DNA of 36,452 nt, from contig CALUFC010000016.1 of NCBI GenBank assembly GCA_944319885.1, positions 1 through 36,452 of the forward strand, read 5' to 3'. The translations under genes were made by a program, and so were the position numbers. Origin of the DNA: an uncultured Coriobacteriaceae bacterium. GTDB lineage: Bacteria; Actinomycetota; Coriobacteriia; Coriobacteriales; Coriobacteriaceae. This document shows positions 2,507 to 27,998 of this stretch, piece by piece. How positions within the stretch are numbered: position 1 is the stretch's first letter; every line of letters starts with the position of its first letter. The notes under the pieces are model-generated. The model was not told the DNA's origin, made no database searches, and saw nothing but the letters and a program-made list of their open reading frames with translations.

Positions 2507-3442
2507 TCATGCCCCCGTCTCATGTTCCCCAAGCAACTTCTCGAGCCGCAGCACGCGATGGTAGAGGGCGGATTTCGAGAGCGGGGGTTCGGCAAGCAGC
2601 CCCAGATCGCGCAGCGAGAGGTCGGGGTGAGCCCGCCGCAGATCGCAGAAGCTTCGCAGCGCCACGGGAAGCGTGTCGATGAGCCCGCGCCGCTCCAGCT
2701 CCTCGATGAGCTCCATCTGGTGCTGCGCCGCGCCCGCCGTACGGTTCTGGTTCGCCACCTCGGCATTCACCTTGCGGTTGACGTCGTTTTTCACAAGCTT
2801 CATCGCGCGCGCATCCTCGATGTCGCCCACGCTGCCGGTCGCGCCGGCCGCCGCAAGCAGCCGGCAGATATCCTCGGCGCTCTTGATATAGACCGCATAG
2901 GTCGAGCGACGCTGGTTCACGCGGGCGCGCACGCTCTCCTTGCCAATGAGCGCAGCGAGCTCGTGAGCATACTCCTCCCCCTGCACCGCGATCTCGAGGT
3001 GAAAATCGCCTCGCGGGTCGGCTACAAAGCCGCCGGCGATGAGGGCGCCGCGAATATAGGCCTTCCTGCAGCAGGGGCGCGCTACCACATGCTTCGGGAT
3101 GCCGCGCACCAGATCGCCCTTGCGGTCGAGCACGCCCAGCAGCACGAGCGCCTTGTCGAGCCCCGGCTGCTCGGGAAGCGAAATGAGGTAGTTGCGCACC
3201 TTGTGGAGCACGGAGCGGCGCGGCGTGAGCTCGGTTTTGAGCTTCAGCACCTTATGCGTGAGCACGATCATCGTACGCGCCACCGCACCTGTCTCGGTGG
3301 TCACCGTGAGCCGACGTCCGCGGCCCGTGATGGAGAGCGTGCCGCACACGCGCACAAGCGCCGCAAGCGTTGCCAAGTCGCAGTATTCGCATGCGGGGGC
3401 ACAGCGCGCGAGCTCGTCGCGCACCTCGGCCGTGAACGACAT
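2507..3442 (-). CDS. whiA: WhiA-family DNA-binding regulator
   Basis: WhiA is a sporulation/cell-division regulator in Streptomyces and a conserved chromosome-binding protein in non-sporulating Gram-positives. The 311-residue protein starts MSFTAEVRDELAR, has the degenerate LAGLIDADG-like half (KAYIRGALIAGG near residues 128-139; NQRRSTYAVYIKSAED near 177-192), and ends with the helix-turn-helix half that includes ALRSFCDLR, HPDLSLRDLG and KSALYHRV. The start at 3442 is 9 bases after the rapZ stop, so the two are probably translated from one mRNA. The yvcK/glmR gene that normally separates rapZ from whiA is absent. Confidence 0.95.
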   Translation of the reverse strand: MSFTAEVRDELARCAPACEYCDLATLAALVRVCGTLSITGRGRRLTVTTETGAVARTMIVLTHKVLKLKTELTPRRSVLHKVRNYLISLPEQPGLDKALVLLGVLDRKGDLVRGIPKHVVARPCCRKAYIRGALIAGGFVADPRGDFHLEIAVQGEEYAHELAALIGKESVRARVNQRRSTYAVYIKSAEDICRLLAAAGATGSVGDIEDARAMKLVKNDVNRKVNAEVANQNRTAGAAQHQMELIEELERRGLIDTLPVALRSFCDLRRAHPDLSLRDLGLLAEPPLSKSALYHRVLRLEKLLGEHETGA

Positions 3443-3451
3443 CGCGCTCCC

Positions 3452-4372
3452 CTAGTTCCGAATGTTCGCCCGCGGCAGATCGCGATGCGAGATGGTGACG
3501 CGATAGCCGTTGCGCTCGAGGTAGCGCGCTGTCGCCTCGGCGATCGCAACGCTGCGGTGCTGTCCGCCCGTGCAGCCCACGGCAATGGAGAGCTGCGGCT
3601 TTCCCTCGGCGATATAGCCGGGCATCACCGCGTCGAGCAGCTGGTACCATGCCTTTAAGAAGGGGCTCGTCTTGGGGTGCTCGAGCACGAATTTCGAGAC
3701 CTTCTCATCGAGCCCGGTGAGCGTACGCATCTCGGGATCGTAGAAGGGGTTGGGCAGGAAGCGCACGTCGATCATGATATCGGCCTCGACCGGCATGCCG
3801 TGCTTGAAGCCGAAGGAAAATACCTGCACCTCCATGAGCTGCTGGTCGGTGAGCTCGGAGAACTCCTGGCGCAGACGCGTGCGCAGCGCCGCGGTGGGCA
3901 ACCTCGTGGTATCGATGATCATGTCCGCGCGGTCGCGCACCGCCTTGAGCGCACGACGCTCGCGCTTGATGGCCGCCGAGGTGCTCTCCCCCGCCATAGC
4001 GAGCGGGTGCCGACGGCGATTCTCCTTGTAGCGGCTGATGAGGACCTCGTCGGACGCCTCGAGAAAGACGAGTTTGACCGACATCTCATGCGCCTCGAGG
4101 CTCGCGATCACATCGACCAGCTCGTCAAACAGGCCCTGGCTGCGCAGGTCGCACGTCACGGCAAGATGCCTGCCCACGCCCGCATTGATGCCCACGAGCT
4201 CCGCGAGCTGCAGCACAAGGCGCGGCGGCAGGTTGTCGATGCAGAAATATCCCATGTCCTCGAATACGTGCATCGCCTGCGTGCGGCCGCTGCCCGACAT
4301 GCCGGTGATGATCACGATGTCGGGAACGCGATCCTGGATCTCGTTTTGGCGAATCTCCTCGTCTGCCGGCAT
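3452..4372 (-). CDS. rapZ: RNase adapter / nucleotide-binding protein RapZ (YvcJ family)
   Basis: Family members bind nucleotides; in E. coli RapZ steers RNase E to the small RNA GlmZ and so controls GlmS, while in Gram-positives the exact role is less clear. The 306-residue protein has a P-loop written GMSGSGRT (near residues 24-31), with Arg where the textbook motif has Lys; this change is common in actinobacterial members. The following GYFCIDNLPP and the C-terminal IAVGCTGGQHRSV and ISHRDL motifs are diagnostic. AGGAGG lies 6 bases before the ATG at 4370-4372. It is first of the rapZ-whiA-gap-pgk run and follows nanE after a hairpin. Confidence 0.94.
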   Translation of the reverse strand: MPADEEIRQNEIQDRVPDIVIITGMSGSGRTQAMHVFEDMGYFCIDNLPPRLVLQLAELVGINAGVGRHLAVTCDLRSQGLFDELVDVIASLEAHEMSVKLVFLEASDEVLISRYKENRRRHPLAMAGESTSAAIKRERRALKAVRDRADMIIDTTRLPTAALRTRLRQEFSELTDQQLMEVQVFSFGFKHGMPVEADIMIDVRFLPNPFYDPEMRTLTGLDEKVSKFVLEHPKTSPFLKAWYQLLDAVMPGYIAEGKPQLSIAVGCTGGQHRSVAIAEATARYLERNGYRVTISHRDLPRANIRN

Positions 4373-4458: not shown

Positions 4459-5145
4459 TTACGCCTCGAGCGCGTCCTTAAACCAGCTCGTGAGGCTCGT
4501 GGGATGCGTGATGGCGGTACCCACCACAACGGACCACGCGCCGGCGTCGATCGCGGCGCGCGCCTCGGCAGGCGTGTGCACGCGGCCCTCGCAGATCACC
4601 GGGAACCCGGGGAACTCCTTGGCTGCCTGCTCGAGCAGCGGCAGATCGGGCCCGTCCTCGAGCGAGCAGTCGGTGGCGGCGGCGTTGTGCGACAGCGTGG
4701 TCGAGACGATGTCGAAGCCCATATCGACCGCACGGCGGATATCGTCGATCGTCATGCAGTCGGCCATGGTGAGCACACCCTCTTCCTTGAGGGGGCGAAG
4801 CGTGTCCTCAACGGTCTTGCCGTCCGGGCGCGGGCGATCGGTGGCGTCGAAGGCAACGATATCCGCACCGGCGGAAACGCAGGCGCGGGCATGGCGGAGC
4901 GTCGGGGTGATGTACACGCCTTCATGCCCGTCTTTCCACAGACCGATCACGGGAATCGAAACGCGCCCCTTGATGGCAGCGATATCGGCAAGGCCCTGGC
5001 AGCGAATGGCTGCGGCACCGCCGAGCTCGCATGCGCGCGACATAAGCGCCATGACCTCGGGCGTGCGGAGCGGCTCGCCCGGATACGCCTGAACGCTCAC
5101 GACGAGCTTGCCCTTCAAAGATTGAATCAACGGATCGACGGCCAT
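4459..5145 (-). CDS. nanE: N-acetylmannosamine-6-phosphate 2-epimerase
   Basis: Converts ManNAc-6-P to GlcNAc-6-P, the last dedicated step of sialic-acid catabolism. The 228-residue TIM-barrel protein shows VSVQAYPGEPL near the N-terminus, AIRCQG, IPVIGLWK, then GADIVAFDATDRPRP, TTLSHN, ICEGRVHTPA and GAWSVVVGTAI, which are the NanE signatures including the catalytic Lys in the GLWK strand. The ATG at 5143-5145 is preferred over a longer in-frame start at 5223 because GGAGG lies 5 bases upstream and the family begins here. It is the last gene of the island, 102 bases after the ROK kinase. Confidence 0.95.
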   Translation of the reverse strand: MAVDPLIQSLKGKLVVSVQAYPGEPLRTPEVMALMSRACELGGAAAIRCQGLADIAAIKGRVSIPVIGLWKDGHEGVYITPTLRHARACVSAGADIVAFDATDRPRPDGKTVEDTLRPLKEEGVLTMADCMTIDDIRRAVDMGFDIVSTTLSHNAAATDCSLEDGPDLPLLEQAAKEFPGFPVICEGRVHTPAEARAAIDAGAWSVVVGTAITHPTSLTSWFKDALEA

Positions 5146-5177
5146 AACGGCCTCCTTCCCAATAGCAAAGCCAGGGA

Positions 5178-5229
5178 CGGATCGAAGCCTGTCGCGAGCC
5201 GCACGCAGCGAGCTTCCCGACAAGATCCG
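5178..5229 (-). other. possible structured leader before nanE
   Basis: In the 102-base gap before nanE, arms 5178-5183/5224-5229 and 5190-5194/5218-5222 can pair as two stacked helices with an asymmetric internal loop. This may be an mRNA segment boundary or simply chance in GC-rich DNA. No known riboswitch class was recognised. Confidence 0.3.
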
Positions 5230-7200: not shown

Positions 7201-7995
7201 TCAGACGGCATGCGGCACGAACCGCCGCAGCCAAATGAGAAGCTCGTCTTCGAAATCGTTGACGCGCTCGTGGCCGTACTTAGGATACACAAGCCGCCTG
7301 TGCTCGCCGGCGACATTGTTGAGGACTGCCGCCTGCATGAACGGGGCGGCGAGCTCGTCCATCATGCAGGTGCCCAGAAGAACCGGCGCGGTGATGCGCG
7401 AGGCGCAGTGCACGAGGGCCTCGCCATATGGATTGAGCGCGGCGACGCCAGCGAGCGCGGGATCTTCCATGAGCGCGGCAACCGCCAAGGCGAGCGTGCC
7501 GCCCAGGCCCTCGCCCCAGGCGACGACCGGCCCGGCATCCACGCCATCCCAGCGGTCGCACGCAAGGCGCGCGCGCAGCGCATCGAGCACCAAGCCGGAA
7601 AGCGCCTCGCCGTCCGCATCGCACGCCGCAGCAAGGGCGGCCTCGCCCACCAGACGGTTCTCCAACGCAACCACAGAGAAGCCAAGCGCGGCGAAGCGCG
7701 TCATATGGTGGTAGCCACGCACGGGACGCTGCGCATCGTGAAAATACAGCAGCACCGGATGAGGGCCGGGAGACAGCGGCTGGACGGTGCGCGCGTAGAG
7801 CGGCGCGGCGGCGGGATCTCCAAACGAGAGCCGCCCGTAGGCGACGAAGGGGTTGCCGAGCTCGACCGGCTCCCAGCCAAGCACCGTGGTCGACGCCGCC
7901 TTGCCCGCCAGCTCGTCGCATCTCAAAAGCGCGGACTCGTCGCCCGTACCGCGAAACGTCTCAAGCTCGCGCATGGCATCGGACATGAGCATCAT
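7201..7995 (-). CDS. CE7-like alpha/beta hydrolase lacking the nucleophilic Ser (probable pseudoenzyme)
   Basis: A 264-residue paralogue of the CE7 acetylesterase encoded just upstream, but degenerate. Where the partner has the nucleophile elbow GASQGG, this one has GEGLGG (residues 161-166), so the nucleophile position (163) is Gly, encoded GGC, one base from the Ser codon AGC. The GQGG motif that supports the oxyanion hole in the partner is also lost (NRLVGE here), and the N-terminus is shorter. The Asp (213, in MMDELAAP) and His (242, in YGHE) positions are kept. Its ATG overlaps the partner's TGA by four bases (ATGA), so the two are translationally coupled. Possible roles are carbohydrate binding, or a regulatory subunit of the active esterase; no function can be asserted. 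Confidence 0.8.
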   Translation of the reverse strand: MMLMSDAMRELETFRGTGDESALLRCDELAGKAASTTVLGWEPVELGNPFVAYGRLSFGDPAAAPLYARTVQPLSPGPHPVLLYFHDAQRPVRGYHHMTRFAALGFSVVALENRLVGEAALAAACDADGEALSGLVLDALRARLACDRWDGVDAGPVVAWGEGLGGTLALAVAALMEDPALAGVAALNPYGEALVHCASRITAPVLLGTCMMDELAAPFMQAAVLNNVAGEHRRLVYPKYGHERVNDFEDELLIWLRRFVPHAV

Positions 7996-8963
7996 GCAAC
8001 CTCCTCCCCGCAGAAAAACCCGATGACCTCGTCATCGAAATCCTGAATCTCCTCGTGCGCGAATCCCGGATAGAACCGATGGTGCTTTGCGCACGAGAGC
8101 TCGTTGTAGACCGCCATCTGCGTGGGGGGCGGACACACATGATCGGCAAGCCCGGTACCGAAGAGCACCTCGGTGGCCTCTGGTATGCGATGCGCGAAGC
8201 TCACGGTGTCCACGTAGGCGAGCTTTCCAAACCACTCATCGAGGTGCTCTCCTCGGGGGTCGCGCCAATGCGAGAAATATCGAATCCCCTCATAGGCGAC
8301 TTCATCGGCCCCCAGCTCCCACACGAGCCGGTAGTCACTCAAAAACGGATAGAGCGCCGCCACGCGCGTTACCTGCGGGTTGAGCGCAGCAGTGGCAAGC
8401 GCCAAGCCGCCTCCCTGCGATGCGCCGTTCGCATACAGCCGCCCGGCATCGATGCCGGGCAGGTGGGAAACGATGCGCACCAGCATGCGAATGCTCTGGT
8501 GAAGACGGGTATAGTACAGGCCCTCTGCCGGCCCTTCCAGCCCCGCGATGATATGTCCCGAGACCGTGGGGCCGGCATAGCCGCCCGCATCGATGCTGGG
8601 GCCACCCTGTCCGGGGTTGTCGAGCGCGATGATGGCCATACCCATGCCGCAAAAGCTCAGATGCTCGAACCAGCTGCGGCTCGAACCGGGGTACCCGTGG
8701 AACTGCAGCACCGCCGGCACCGGCCCATCCATAACGGGCATATGCACCTTTGCGTGCAGCTCGGCTCCATCGATGCCCTTGAAATACAAGTCGTAGAACA
8801 CACAGCTGGGATATGCCGGCACGCGCGCCGGCTCCAGCCGGTACGAGAGCTCGGCAGCATCCGCCTCGGCCATCCGCGCATCCCAAAAGGCGTCGAAATC
8901 CGACGGCACGGGTGTTGAGCCATGGTAGTCGCCGTATGCGGCAATGAGCTCCTGTTCGGTCAT
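7992..8963 (-). CDS. CE7-family acetylesterase (acetyl xylan esterase / cephalosporin-C deacetylase fold)
   Basis: Likely removes O-acetyl groups from an imported sugar, here plausibly O-acetylated sialic acid, in the cytoplasm (no signal peptide). The 323-residue protein carries the CE7 signatures: the oxyanion region FHGYPGSS (88-95), NPGQGG (116-121), nucleophile Ser182 in GASQGG, Asp274 in GLADHVCPP and His303 in FAHEE. Spacing matches characterised CE7 enzymes of about 325 residues. As I recall, a CE7 gene also lies in the pneumococcal nan locus, which supports a sialate esterase role. It is followed with 4-bp overlap by its catalytically altered paralogue. Family is secure; substrate is inferred. 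Confidence 0.88.
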   Translation of the reverse strand: MTEQELIAAYGDYHGSTPVPSDFDAFWDARMAEADAAELSYRLEPARVPAYPSCVFYDLYFKGIDGAELHAKVHMPVMDGPVPAVLQFHGYPGSSRSWFEHLSFCGMGMAIIALDNPGQGGPSIDAGGYAGPTVSGHIIAGLEGPAEGLYYTRLHQSIRMLVRIVSHLPGIDAGRLYANGASQGGGLALATAALNPQVTRVAALYPFLSDYRLVWELGADEVAYEGIRYFSHWRDPRGEHLDEWFGKLAYVDTVSFAHRIPEATEVLFGTGLADHVCPPPTQMAVYNELSCAKHHRFYPGFAHEEIQDFDDEVIGFFCGEEVA

Positions 8964-9037: not shown

Positions 9038-9862
9038 CTACCGCCCTAGCTTGGGATGGAGCAGCGAAGGCGCTGCCCCGAGCAGGAGCTTGGTGTATGC
9101 ATCCTGCGGGTTCTCAAAGATCTGCTTCGCCGGACCCTCCTCCATGATCTGACCGTGGTTCATGACCACGATGCGATCGGAGATATAGCGCTCTGTCTGG
9201 ATGTCATGGCTGATGAAGACCATGGCGAGACCGAGCTCCTTCTTGAGATCTGTCAGCAGGTTCAAGATCTGGGCGCGCACCGACACGTCGAGTGCCGAGG
9301 TAGGCTCGTCGGCGATGATAACATCGGGGTTGAGCGACAGGGCGCGCGCGATGGCGACGCGCTGGCGCTGGCCGCCGGAAAGCTGGCCAGGCAGGGCGTA
9401 CATGGCCGAGGTCGGCAGGCCCACGAGGCCGATGAGCTCGCTCACACGGGCCTCGCGCTCGTCTTCGGTGCCCACCTTGTGCACGATCAACGGGTCGAGC
9501 AGCTGATCATGGACCGTCATGCGCGGGTTGAGCGCCGTGGCAGGGTTCTGGAACACCACGGACACCACGCGGCCCATCTTCTTGCGAAGCTCGGCGGTGC
9601 GCTTGGTGACGTCCTCGCCCTTGAAGTAGACATGCCCGCTCGTAGGCGACTGAAGACCGCACATGACGTTGGCGGTTGTGGACTTGCCGCAGCCGGATTC
9701 GCCCACGATACCAATGGTCTCACCCGGCATGAGCTTGAGCGTGAGGCCGTTCACAGCGGTCACGATGTTGGGATGCAGCAGCGAGCCCGTACGGGTCTTG
9801 AACTTCACCGAGATGTTATCAAGGAAGATGATGGGCGTCTGCTCGGAGGTCTTCTCTGCCAT
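9038..9862 (-). CDS. Opp/Dpp-type ABC transporter ATP-binding protein
   Basis: One of two ATPase modules powering the importer of this cluster at the inner face of the membrane. The 274-residue protein has Walker A GESGCGKS (54-61), Q-loop VFQNP, signature LSGGQRQRV (161-169), Walker B VIIADEP and an H-loop His in FISHD, plus the C-terminal extension typical of OppF/DppF. Its ATG abuts the stop of the fused permease-ATPase (TAGATG), so expression is coupled. The family normally serves peptides, but Opp-type sialic-acid importers (SatABCD type) are known, and the neighbours favour that cargo. Confidence 0.93.
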
Positions 9863-11887: not shown

Positions 11888-12847
11888 CTACACCGTCCTA
11901 ATGCGCGGATTGATGAGCAGATACAGCATATCGACCACGATATTGATGATCACGAACGCGAGCGCGACCACGATGACGACGCCCATGACGAGGAAGGTCT
12001 CGCCACCGGTGATGCCCTCTTGGATCGCGGTGCCCATACCGGGCAGGTTGAAGATGACCTCGATGACCACGGCGCCACCCATGAGGTAGCCGATCTTCAA
12101 GCCGAGCGTGGTGACCGGGGTGATGAGCGCGTTGCGAAGCACGTTCTTGGCGATGACGACGCGCTCGGGCAGGCCGCCGCCGCGGGCCGTGACCACGTAA
12201 TCCTTATCGAGCTCCTCGACCATGGCGGTACGCACGATACGCGTCATCTGGCCGGAAAGCGGGAACGCCATAGCGACCGCGGGCATGATCATGCGCGCGA
12301 TGTAGCCGGCGGGGTTCACAAAGAAGTTGGGCAGCGGACCGGAAGCCGGAAGCAGCCCGAGCATGGATGAGAACAGGAGGATGAGCAGGACCGCGAACCA
12401 AAACGATGGCGTCGCGATACCCGCAATGGAGTAGACACGTATGATTTGATCGGGAAGCCGATCACGATAGAGCGCCGATATCACGCCCAAGATGAACGAG
12501 ATAACTGCACCGATGATAAGTCCCATGAACGTAAGCTGCATGGTGACGGGCAGCGCCTTGCCGATGCGCTCGGCAACCGATGCGCGCGAAGCGCCATAGG
12601 TGCCCAGATCGCCCTGGAAGAGACCGGCGATGTAGTCGACATAGCGCGTTGGCAGCGGATCGTTGAGACCGTGCTCGTCCATGTACTGCTCCACGGCCTC
12701 CTGGCTCGCGCTCTCGCCGAGCGCGTTGCGTGCCGGGATGCTGGGATCCGTGAACGACATGAGGATGAACACGAGCAAGGTGACACCCAGCGCCATAATC
12801 GGAAGCGCGATGATGCGCCTGCCGATAAGCCTTAGCATGTTATTCAA
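11888..12847 (-). CDS. Opp/Dpp-type ABC transporter permease (DppB-like)
   Basis: Membrane subunit pairing with the permease half of the fusion to form the importer channel. The 319-residue protein has an N-terminal helix (about 12-31), the family PLPTRYVDYIAGLFQGDLG region, four to five later helices and the EAA loop ARGGGLPERVVIAKNVLRN. A TTG at 12845-12847 is chosen as the start because GGAG lies 6 bases upstream; the ATG three codons later (12838) would be 15 bases away. The ends are otherwise typical of the family. Confidence 0.92.
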   Translation of the reverse strand: MNNMLRLIGRRIIALPIMALGVTLLVFILMSFTDPSIPARNALGESASQEAVEQYMDEHGLNDPLPTRYVDYIAGLFQGDLGTYGASRASVAERIGKALPVTMQLTFMGLIIGAVISFILGVISALYRDRLPDQIIRVYSIAGIATPSFWFAVLLILLFSSMLGLLPASGPLPNFFVNPAGYIARMIMPAVAMAFPLSGQMTRIVRTAMVEELDKDYVVTARGGGLPERVVIAKNVLRNALITPVTTLGLKIGYLMGGAVVIEVIFNLPGMGTAIQEGITGGETFLVMGVVIVVALAFVIINIVVDMLYLLINPRIRTV

Positions 12848-12962: not shown

Positions 12963-14582
12963 TTACGCCTGGACCGTCGCGACGTCGATGAACGACATGC
13001 CGGTGGTGCCGATACCGGAGAAGCCGTCCAGCGAGACGCCCTCGCCGTTGGGGTTGTCGCTCCAGGAAGCGGTCGCGGTCTGAGCCTGGAGGACCGGGTA
13101 CAGCACGCACTGCTCGGCGAGCAGGTCGAAGCACTGGTTCCAGGTCTCCTGCTGCTCGTCGCCGGACTGGCCGAGCGCGGTCTGCATGAGCTGCTGCAGC
13201 TGCTGCCACTCTGCGGACCCCTTCCACGGGCAACGGGTCTGCATCCAGACGGAGTCACCGTACCACCAGTTCATGAGGAGGTCGGGGTCGGCGCCGAAGC
13301 AGGACGGATCGCCCGGGGCGAGGAGCAGGTCGTAGGTGTTCGCGCCCGCATCGATGTAGGCGTAGGTGGCCTGCGAGGTCTGCTCGTTGATCTTGACGGT
13401 GAAGCCAATGGCAGCGAGGTCCTGCTCGACCTGCGTCGCCATGGCGACAACCTGCTCGTTATCGGTTACGCACAGCTCAATCTCGCCCAGGGACGCCGGA
13501 TCGACGCCGGCCTCCTCGAGCAGGCTCTTCGCCTTGTCGGGATCGTAGGTGTACACCGTGGAAGCCTCGTGATAGTTCGCGAAACTCTCGGGCAGGTAGG
13601 ACGTCGGGGCAACGGCCATGCCGGCGAACGCGTTGGAGATCATCTGATCGTAGTTGAGCGCGTACATGACGGCCTGGCGAACCTTGACGTTGTCCCACGG
13701 CGCCTTGGCGATGTCGAACATCATGAAGCGCGTGGCGAAGCCATCGACGACGTCGACCTTGCAGCCGGCGGACTCGAGCTGATCGACGGCGTCGGCCGTG
13801 ACCATCTCCATGGCGAGCGTGGTGCCCTCCTGCTGGGCGGTCACGCGAGCGGTGGCGTCGACGAGGATGTCATAGTGGAGCTTGGAGTCCTTGGCGGGAT
13901 GCTCGCCGTTGTAGTTCTCGTTCGGGCTCATCTCGACGACGGACTCGCTGATCTCGTCGTACTTCCAGGGGCCGGAGCCGATGGGCATGGCGGTCATGGC
14001 GTCGGCATCGGAGGAAGCCGGAACCACGCGGACGATGGCCAGGCGCTCCTTGAGCAACGAGAAGTTGGGGATCGTGGTCTTGATGGTGAGGGTGGTGTCG
14101 TCCTTCTTCTCGATGGAGGCGATGGGCGCGAGCATCGGGATGTAGATGTTGCCCTCGGCGTTTGCGCGGTTGTAGGACTCGATGACGTCCTCGGGGGTCA
14201 CGGGGTTGCCGTCGGAGAAGGCGGCGCCCTCACGCAGGGTCACCTCGTAAGTGGTCTCGTCGATCTGGGTGGGATCGCCGGTGGCGAGCTCGGGGAAGGT
14301 GGTGTAGTCGTGATAATCGATGCCGTAGAGGCCCTCGACCACGTGCCAGTTGGTGCCCAGCGAGAGCGCGGAGCTCGTCGTGGCGGGGTTGAAGTTGGTG
14401 GCAGCGTAGGCAGAGCCGGCAGTGATGGTGCCGCCGCCCGTCTCGCCACCAGCGGCGCCGCTACCGGCCGGAGCGGAGTCTCCGCCGCAGCCCGCGAGAC
14501 CGAGACCTGCGACCGCAGCGGCACCACCTGCGACACCCAGGAAGGTCCTACGGGACAGATCTTTGTTCAATAGCTTACGCAT
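12963..14582 (-). CDS. extracellular solute-binding lipoprotein, family 5 (Opp/Dpp type)
   Basis: Captures the transported solute outside the membrane. The 539-residue precursor starts MRKLLNKDLS, followed by a Tat-like RRTFLG and a lipobox LAGC, so it is predicted to be exported folded and lipid-anchored at the Cys. A Gly/Ala/Ser-rich tether follows, then a family-5 binding fold (GLYGID, DGNPVTPEDVIES, GSGPWKY, VRQAVMYALNYDQM, PDKAKSLLEEAG). The ATG at 14580-14582 has GGAG 6 bases upstream; an earlier in-frame TTG overlaps that site. It is promoter-proximal in the operon. Family 5 proteins bind peptides, nickel, haem or sugars including sialic acid; the cargo is inferred from neighbours. Confidence 0.93.
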   Translation of the reverse strand: MRKLLNKDLSRRTFLGVAGGAAAVAGLGLAGCGGDSAPAGSGAAGGETGGGTITAGSAYAATNFNPATTSSALSLGTNWHVVEGLYGIDYHDYTTFPELATGDPTQIDETTYEVTLREGAAFSDGNPVTPEDVIESYNRANAEGNIYIPMLAPIASIEKKDDTTLTIKTTIPNFSLLKERLAIVRVVPASSDADAMTAMPIGSGPWKYDEISESVVEMSPNENYNGEHPAKDSKLHYDILVDATARVTAQQEGTTLAMEMVTADAVDQLESAGCKVDVVDGFATRFMMFDIAKAPWDNVKVRQAVMYALNYDQMISNAFAGMAVAPTSYLPESFANYHEASTVYTYDPDKAKSLLEEAGVDPASLGEIELCVTDNEQVVAMATQVEQDLAAIGFTVKINEQTSQATYAYIDAGANTYDLLLAPGDPSCFGADPDLLMNWWYGDSVWMQTRCPWKGSAEWQQLQQLMQTALGQSGDEQQETWNQCFDLLAEQCVLYPVLQAQTATASWSDNPNGEGVSLDGFSGIGTTGMSFIDVATVQA

Positions 14583-14673
14583 AGGTCTCTCCAATCACTG
14601 TAGTATGCACCCCACCATGCGTTTTGAGAGGCGCATATATGGACACGTTTATCATCGCGTATTTCGAGATTGT

Positions 14674-26718: not shown

Positions 26719-27998
26719 TAGACGATATCCGTGTCGAGCGCCTCTCATACGACCGACCGATTCTCGTTGGATGCATCGCAGACAACGCTAGGACGTTTTC
26801 CTACGATGCATCATATCTGGATAATCCGACTGCCATTCCCCTCTCGCTGTCGCTCCCCCTGCAAGCCGAGCCCTTCTATCAGGAGTCGTTTCGCCCGTAT
26901 TTCGAGGGTCTGCTTGCCGAGGGCACCCCTCGCCAAGCCCTTGCCGCCGAGCTACAGATTAGGGAGGATGATTATCTTTCGCTGCTGGTTTGCTGCGGCA
27001 GAGAGTGCATAGGGGACGTCTTAATCAGCGACGACAACGATGCCGCCGCTCAAAAGGACTTTGGATACGAGCCCATAAGTCACGGAGACCTCATAGCCAT
27101 GTTCCGCGACCTGCCGGAATCCGCTGCCGAGAATGCTGCGTCGCGTCTCTCCCTTGCTGGCACGCAAAACAAAGTCGGCCTCGCCCGTATGCCCGCTCAT
27201 GGCCCAAGTGGATGGATGCGCCCCAAGGGCCTTGCGGCAACGACGCACATCCTCAAGACAAGCACGTTGCGCGACCTGCCGGAAGTTGAATATCTCTGCA
27301 TGCAAGCCGCGCGTGCCTGCGGCATCACAGTCCCAAACTGCGAGCTGCTTGAATTGGGCCGACCCGTGCTTGCCATGGAGCGGTTTGACCGATTCATCAC
27401 GACAGCATCCGGTGCCATGCGAGTCGAACGCATGCATCAAGAAGACCTCGCACAGGCTTTTGGCATTACACCGGGATCGAAATACGCAGAGCTGCCTGGA
27501 GGAAGCGTAGCCGCTATCGCGGAGCTGATTCGACGCAACAGCACACAGCCGGCGGCAGATCTTTCCCAGTTTGCAGCGACACTGCTCCTCTCCTATGTGA
27601 TCGGCAATTGCGATGGGCACTTGAAAAACCATTCGATTCGCCTGAACCCCTCCCGCGGACACCGCACGACCTTCTCGCTCGCACCCGCCTACGACCTTGT
27701 CTCGACTACTTATTTCCCTAAGTTCAGCAAGAGCATGGCGATGCGTCTCGGGGGAGCGCGAAACATCGACGAGGTAACGCCGCGCACCTTCGTCGATCTT
27801 GCCAAGGAGCTTGGTATTACCACGGCCGCACTCAGGCGCCTTGGAAAACGCATAGCCGAGCGTGTGAGGCCTGCCATCGTGCATTCCGGAGATGGCGACC
27901 TTGGCACGGTCCTCACCTCCACGCCGTATGTAGCAGAGGGCCTTATGGAGGATATAGCTCCGCGGTTACGCGTTCTAGACGAATTCGCCCAGAGCTGA
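26718..27998 (+). CDS. hipA: HipA-family Ser/Thr kinase toxin with apparent AUA start codon
   Basis: HipA kinases inactivate targets such as glutamyl-tRNA synthetase and induce dormancy. From 26718 the frame encodes 426 residues, close to the 440 of E. coli HipA: an N-terminal HipA_N domain (LVGCIADNARTFSYD, LSLSLPL, PYFEGLLAEG at about 10-100), the ATP-loop-like SLAGTQNKVGL, Lys in THILKTS, ERFDRF, the catalytic loop CDGHLKN (Asp299, Asn304) and the metal Asp326 in APAYDL. No ATG, GTG or TTG occurs in frame before residue 128 (27099). AGGAG lies 6 bases before ATA at 26718, which overlaps hipB's stop as TGATA, exactly where TGATG would be expected. Either AUA is used, the start has been lost, or this is a sequence error. 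Translation from 27099 would give 299 residues without the N-domain. Confidence 0.8.
   Translation: MDDIRVERLSYDRPILVGCIADNARTFSYDASYLDNPTAIPLSLSLPLQAEPFYQESFRPYFEGLLAEGTPRQALAAELQIREDDYLSLLVCCGRECIGDVLISDDNDAAAQKDFGYEPISHGDLIAMFRDLPESAAENAASRLSLAGTQNKVGLARMPAHGPSGWMRPKGLAATTHILKTSTLRDLPEVEYLCMQAARACGITVPNCELLELGRPVLAMERFDRFITTASGAMRVERMHQEDLAQAFGITPGSKYAELPGGSVAAIAELIRRNSTQPAADLSQFAATLLLSYVIGNCDGHLKNHSIRLNPSRGHRTTFSLAPAYDLVSTTYFPKFSKSMAMRLGGARNIDEVTPRTFVDLAKELGITTAALRRLGKRIAERVRPAIVHSGDGDLGTVLTSTPYVAEGLMEDIAPRLRVLDEFAQS

Follow-up and report, generated by a model that had tools for sequence, protein, structure and literature searches.

It appears probable, from sequence and gene order taken together, that two adjacent genes in a sialic acid (nan) operon of the Coriobacteriales, here called A and B, encode the catalytic and the non-catalytic subunit of a single cytoplasmic heteromeric O-acetylesterase for imported sialic acid. 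B is a conserved, catalytically dead paralogue of A that co-occurs obligately with this active partner, the combination by which a pseudoenzyme subunit is recognized. A complex of A and B can be proposed with good confidence, and from the operon context we infer sialate as the putative substrate.

Both genes lie within the window, as the whole 36,452-nucleotide stretch of DNA analysed is called here. The operon is transcribed from the minus strand in the order family-5 solute-binding protein, permease, fused permease-ATPase, ATPase, A, B, nanA, nanK and nanE (Table 1), and the reading frames of A and B are both intact. The stop codon of A and the start codon of B share an ATGA, implying that translation of the two genes would be coupled, and a Shine-Dalgarno-like GGAGGAGG (AGGAGG-type) is situated within the 3' end of A, just 5' of the start of B. 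In base composition, examined with a possible mobile origin in mind, both genes stay close to the adjacent ones in GC and GC3, B being slightly higher in GC and A lower in GC3.

Table 1. Features of the sialate operon in the window, in order of transcription
Feature	Position	Strand	Basis
Family-5 solute-binding protein, presumed sialate importer	12963..14594	-	Homology and synteny
Permease, presumed sialate importer	11888..12847	-	Homology and synteny
Fused permease-ATPase, presumed sialate importer, 673 aa	9863..11884	-	Homology and synteny
ABC ATPase (Dpp/Opp type), presumed sialate importer	9038..9862	-	Homology and synteny
A, catalytically intact CE7/AXE1 acetylesterase, 323 aa	7992..8963	-	Pfam AXE1, triad residues
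ATGA overlap, stop of A and start of B	7992..7995	-	Sequence
B, CE7 pseudoenzyme, 264 aa	7201..7995	-	Pfam AXE1, alignment to A
WGEGLG codons, nucleophile elbow of B (residues 160-165, Gly163 at the nucleophile position)	7501..7518	-	Sequence
nanA-type lyase, DHDPS family, 306 aa	6217..7137	-	Homology
nanK-type ROK kinase, 317 aa	5248..6201	-	Homology
nanE, N-acetylmannosamine-6-phosphate 2-epimerase	4459..5223	-	NCBIfam PRK01130, above cut-off

The esterase and its homologue without a nucleophile

The CE7 enzymes are ring-shaped homo-hexamers in which six active sites face a central tunnel, and which assemble by means of their N-terminal extension, three-helix insertion and beta-interface loop (PMC6209228). 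Examples include Axe1 of Thermoanaerobacterium (3fcy), the cephalosporin C deacetylase of B. subtilis (1ods) and TM0077 of T. maritima (1vlq), and A resembles them in its triad, oxyanion loop and GQGG motif. It matches Pfam AXE1 with E=1.1e-82 and 277.8 bits (cut-off 21), and its best solved relative is xylan esterase 1 of Thermoanaerobacterium (3fcy, E=8e-72). Ser182, Asp274 and His303 are all present, together with Tyr91 in the oxyanion loop and Gln119 within the GQGG at 118-121; the corresponding motifs read FHGYPG at the oxyanion loop, NPGQGG, and GASQGG at the nucleophile. The Ser-Asp-His triad and the GxSxGG motif are invariant across the aligned A sequences, and all three of the CE7 assembly stretches can be found in the sequence of A.

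B is clearly a homologue of A (27% identity, E=2e-17) and matches the same profile with E=8.9e-19 and 67.8 bits against the cut-off of 21; all 22 of the B proteins that were scanned match this profile. Where A has GASQGG, B has WGEGLGG, such that Gly163 aligns with Ser182. The oxyanion-loop Gly-Tyr is gone, FHGY having become FHD (HGYPG to HDAQR) with an Asp in the loop, the GQGG stretch is deleted and the beta-interface loop is shortened. The three-helix insertion that follows strand 6 is mostly deleted in the B protein of the window and partly retained in some others, while the window protein keeps Asp213 and His242. An earlier note on this DNA had described an upstream gene with Ser182, Asp274 and His303, overlapping by ATGA a downstream paralogue that has Gly for the nucleophilic Ser (GEGLGG), keeps the Asp and His and has lost GQGG, and each element of that description is borne out by the alignment of the two proteins. 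B therefore belongs to CE7 by homology and fold, and lacks the catalytic Ser, the oxyanion Gly-Tyr, GQGG and the full assembly stretches; in its want of nucleophile, Gly-Tyr and self-assembly loop it differs from the known CE7 enzymes, described as homo-hexamers (PMC6209228). Retention of the fold is suggested by a predicted model of moderate confidence (mean pLDDT 63), for which Foldseek returned 1ods with E=2.5e-11. The top CE7 matches of this model with VIA have a Z of about 14 and an rmsd of 3.8-4.1 Å over 205-216 residues, with other alpha/beta hydrolases scoring within 1 of them.

Conservation, pairing and descent

Relatives were gathered by protein and profile searches and their loci fetched, yielding an alignment of 39 B sequences from two Coriobacteriales families. 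Gly occupies the nucleophile column in 39 of 39, usually within GEGxG and rarely within GDGxG. Each of the four Gly codons is used at this position, which indicates that the residue has been kept while the codon drifted. Asp87, Arg100, Glu243, Arg244 and Asn246 are invariant in B and Glu162 is nearly so, Asp213 and His242 are kept in 87-92% of the proteins, and the oxyanion-loop Gly-Tyr is gone in all. Clean, class-defining switches from A to B occur at eleven positions (among them Gly90Asp, Ser97Gly, Glu100His, Ser103Arg, Pro117Arg, Ser182Gly, Tyr205Asn, Glu305Arg and Asp310Glu), and on this pattern the active site of B looks rebuilt rather than eroded. Variants exist within the group. In the B proteins of three loci (L095, L096 and L097) the triad Asp and His are lost as well (LGQ, YERIN) and the ERINDFED motif is kept, and those of Parafannyhessea-type genomes (L004, 3992-5032, and L134) have GEGLAG for GEGLGG and a Gly/Ala-rich C-terminal tail.

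The earlier note had proposed a survey of orthologues for the Gly and for the tandem, with Ser in relatives to be taken as a sign of recent decay and frameshifts as the mark of a pseudogene. No Ser appears among the 39 aligned B proteins, the frame of B is open in every genome where a contig end does not cut it, and the median dN/dS (a simple Nei-Gojobori estimate over 21 close species) comes to 0.19 in B against 0.05 in A. The invariant Gly, the drift of its codons and the purifying selection together identify B as an old, selected pseudoenzyme rather than a decaying gene, and recent decay is refuted. It is extremely improbable that B represents a CE7 gene decaying into a pseudogene; its faster evolution relative to A would suit such a gene, whereas open frames across two families, the unchanging Gly, a dN/dS of about 0.19, the conservation of newly acquired residues and the retention of B in fused proteins would not.

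The tandem is as constant as the Gly. Among 395 genomes of the order Coriobacteriales, 61 have either gene and all 61 have both, and in every case A either immediately precedes B or is joined to it in one frame; neither gene was found alone in these 395, six others having one weak match each. The pair stands between the transporter ATPase gene and nanA wherever a related locus extends far enough for its position to be judged, and is linked with nanA, nanK, nanE and a Sat-type ABC transporter, which provides the genomic connection to sialate. Within the window's family this nanA is present in 44 of 65 genomes and the pair in 23, and within the window's genus the pair is present in one genome of nine. 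In five loci without the pair that were read, including that of a relative with a 95% identical NanA, the ATPase gene is followed directly by nanA; both genes are absent together at this junction, from which it follows that A and B come and go together, and the existence of several nan operons without them indicates that the pair is accessory.

The two genes are joined into a single open reading frame in 13 genomes belonging to five genera, all in the second family (the one that includes Atopobiaceae); in the nine of these where no contig end cuts the frame, its product has 508 to 588 aa. At the junction there is hardly any linker between the last helix of A and the first strands of B, and B lacks its N-terminal extension. 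Fusion of genes that are otherwise separate and always adjacent is strong evidence that their products would touch, in a physical complex. The suggestion of a heteromeric esterase with a non-catalytic subunit, made when the window was first read, is supported by these natural fusions, by the 61 of 61 pairing and by the joint absence of the two genes. The fused proteins group together as a single clade in the A half and the B half of the tree alike, which points to one fusion event kept in many species rather than to several independent ones.

In the tree as a whole, B forms one clade (100/100) and A another (100/98), and the two are sisters (100/96), a placement that holds when other actinobacterial CE7 proteins and the closest CE7 enzymes of solved structure are added, so that a single duplication explains both. 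B has longer branches than A, making its placement less certain in detail. In searches of 396 genomes sampled from the class and 396 from the phylum, strong B-type matches came only from the two Coriobacteriales families, the best of the others being canonical CE7 proteins with GxSQGG, and a plasmid search gave no match.

Proposed mechanism, alternatives and precedents

In the mechanism that best accommodates these results, the neighbouring ABC transporter would import O-acetylated sialic acid and A would carry out the chemistry, removing O-acetyl groups so that NanA could cleave the sialic acid. No signal peptide was seen by eye in A or B, so that the proposed complex would be expected to work inside the cell, in the cytoplasm, on the imported O-acetylated sialate. 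Neither a BNR_2 sialidase nor a SASA/NanS-type esterase was detected in the window's genome, which fits a scavenger of free sialates. The tree shows that B stems from one old duplication within the CE7 family. The alignments show that B no longer has the nucleophile, the Gly-Tyr of the oxyanion loop or the beta-interface loop through which CE7 enzymes self-assemble, and that its pocket has been rebuilt with new residues that are now fixed. Made directly after A, B is expected to assemble with it, as judged from the coupling, the pairing and the fusions, and may replace part of the contacts that A would otherwise make with itself. Most probably B acts structurally or allosterically, by pairing with A, by shaping or gating the entrance to the active site, or by holding substrate.

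Several considerations weigh against a subunit role for B, namely that it evolves faster than A, which is compatible with weaker constraint, that the fusions trace to one event, that the predicted model of B is of moderate confidence, and that the pair is missing from several nan operons. Among the alternatives, and in line with the second reading offered in the earlier note, a binding or sensing protein for the acetylated sugar, B might be a stand-alone protein that shares a transcript with A but forms no complex with it, and whose ligand would be acetylated sialic acid or some other compound. The fold and pocket scaffold are kept, and the invariant polar residues Asp87, Arg100, Arg244 and Asn246, with the near-invariant Glu162, could hold a ligand; domain scans of B found no DNA-binding or signalling domain, however, and a subunit accounts better for the near-linkerless fusion and for the strictness with which B accompanies A, leaving such a protein improbable. 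Even less probable is that B is itself an enzyme of different, Ser-independent chemistry, acting perhaps on another sialate derivative through its Asp-His pair and conserved acidic and basic residues. The frequency with which Asp213 and His242 are kept and the many class-defining switches around the site favour such chemistry, yet the L095-L097 lineage lost both residues and keeps B, and the oxyanion-loop Gly-Tyr has been lost throughout. Also unlikely, if slightly less so, is an incidental nan context, with a different acetylated sugar in place of sialic acid as the substrate of the pair. CE7 enzymes are broad in their substrates, which include acetylated xylose and glucose as well as cephalosporins (PMC6209228), but the pair accompanies the transporter, nanA-nanK-nanE or both in each related locus whose length allows them to be seen. 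A more speculative extension, doubtful at present, is that the rebuilt pocket of B (Asp87, Arg100, Glu243, Arg244, Asn246 and Glu162) constitutes a functional site of its own beside that of A, be it a catalytic centre that works without Ser or a sialate site that switches A allosterically, in which case the pair would be a two-site machine for sialate processing.

The preferred assignment of A and B as catalytic and non-catalytic subunits has parallels of several kinds. Dead paralogues that complete an enzyme are known, and one within CE7 appears to be unreported, no published description having been found. In the trypanosomatid prozymes and the ClpP/ClpR protease a dead paralogue activates or completes the complex of the catalytic subunit, in other folds and organisms, whereas for A and B such an effect would be a prediction from sequence. 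Neuroligins, NDRG proteins and mycobacterial MPT51 share the alpha/beta-hydrolase fold and have been kept after loss of a catalytic residue, although none of them is known to be tied obligately to an active paralogue within a single operon or polypeptide.

Closer in function is Axe of S. pneumoniae (SPD_1506), a Ser-dependent acetyl xylan esterase that, in the available portion of its published description, frees acetate from O-acetylated, sialic-acid-rich mucin and helps sialidase, its deletion leaving growth on mucin without defect; unlike A with its partner B, Axe is not accompanied by any mention of a dead paralogue in that portion (PMC5352144). NanS of E. coli and EstA of Bacteroides do the job proposed here for A and B, the removal of O-acetyl groups for sialate use (PMC10017367). 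NanS differs in being SGNH-type and described as monomeric, and the window's genome has no SASA match. The open-access literature yielded no report of CE7 pseudoenzymes, or of esterases or an esterase pair in the nan clusters of Coriobacteriales, and a survey of sialic acid catabolism in Actinobacteria contains no word beginning with 'esterase' (PMC8754123). Should the proposed complex exist, a family described as homo-hexameric would gain a natural heteromeric version, with a pseudoenzyme that has become fixed in two families of bacteria and that, within a single clade, shares one chain with the active subunit. It would offer a likely route to O-acetylated sialic acids for Coriobacteriales in which neither sialidase nor NanS is detected, and raises the question of what a dead alpha/beta-hydrolase subunit contributes to a live one.

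Other features of the locus

The 673-aa transporter protein combines an OppC-type permease and an OppD-type ATPase in one chain; the same fusion is present in the related nan operons examined, and it fits a four-gene sialate importer of the SatABCD/ST3-like kind. Between the transporter ATPase gene and A there is a perfect 9-bp inverted repeat of G+C (8988-8996/9013-9021; CGGCGCGCG...CGCGCGCCG), possibly a partial terminator or a hairpin for mRNA processing, and a relative without the pair (L162) has another hairpin-like repeat 3' of the same ATPase gene. Directly 3' of nanE in the window are whiA and rapZ (2507-4372, minus strand), and rapZ adjoins nanE in many related loci, a linkage of sialate catabolism with RapZ/WhiA. 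At a distance from the operon, on the plus strand at 27099-27998, the window encodes a 299-aa protein with a HipA-like C-terminal domain (Pfam HipA_C).
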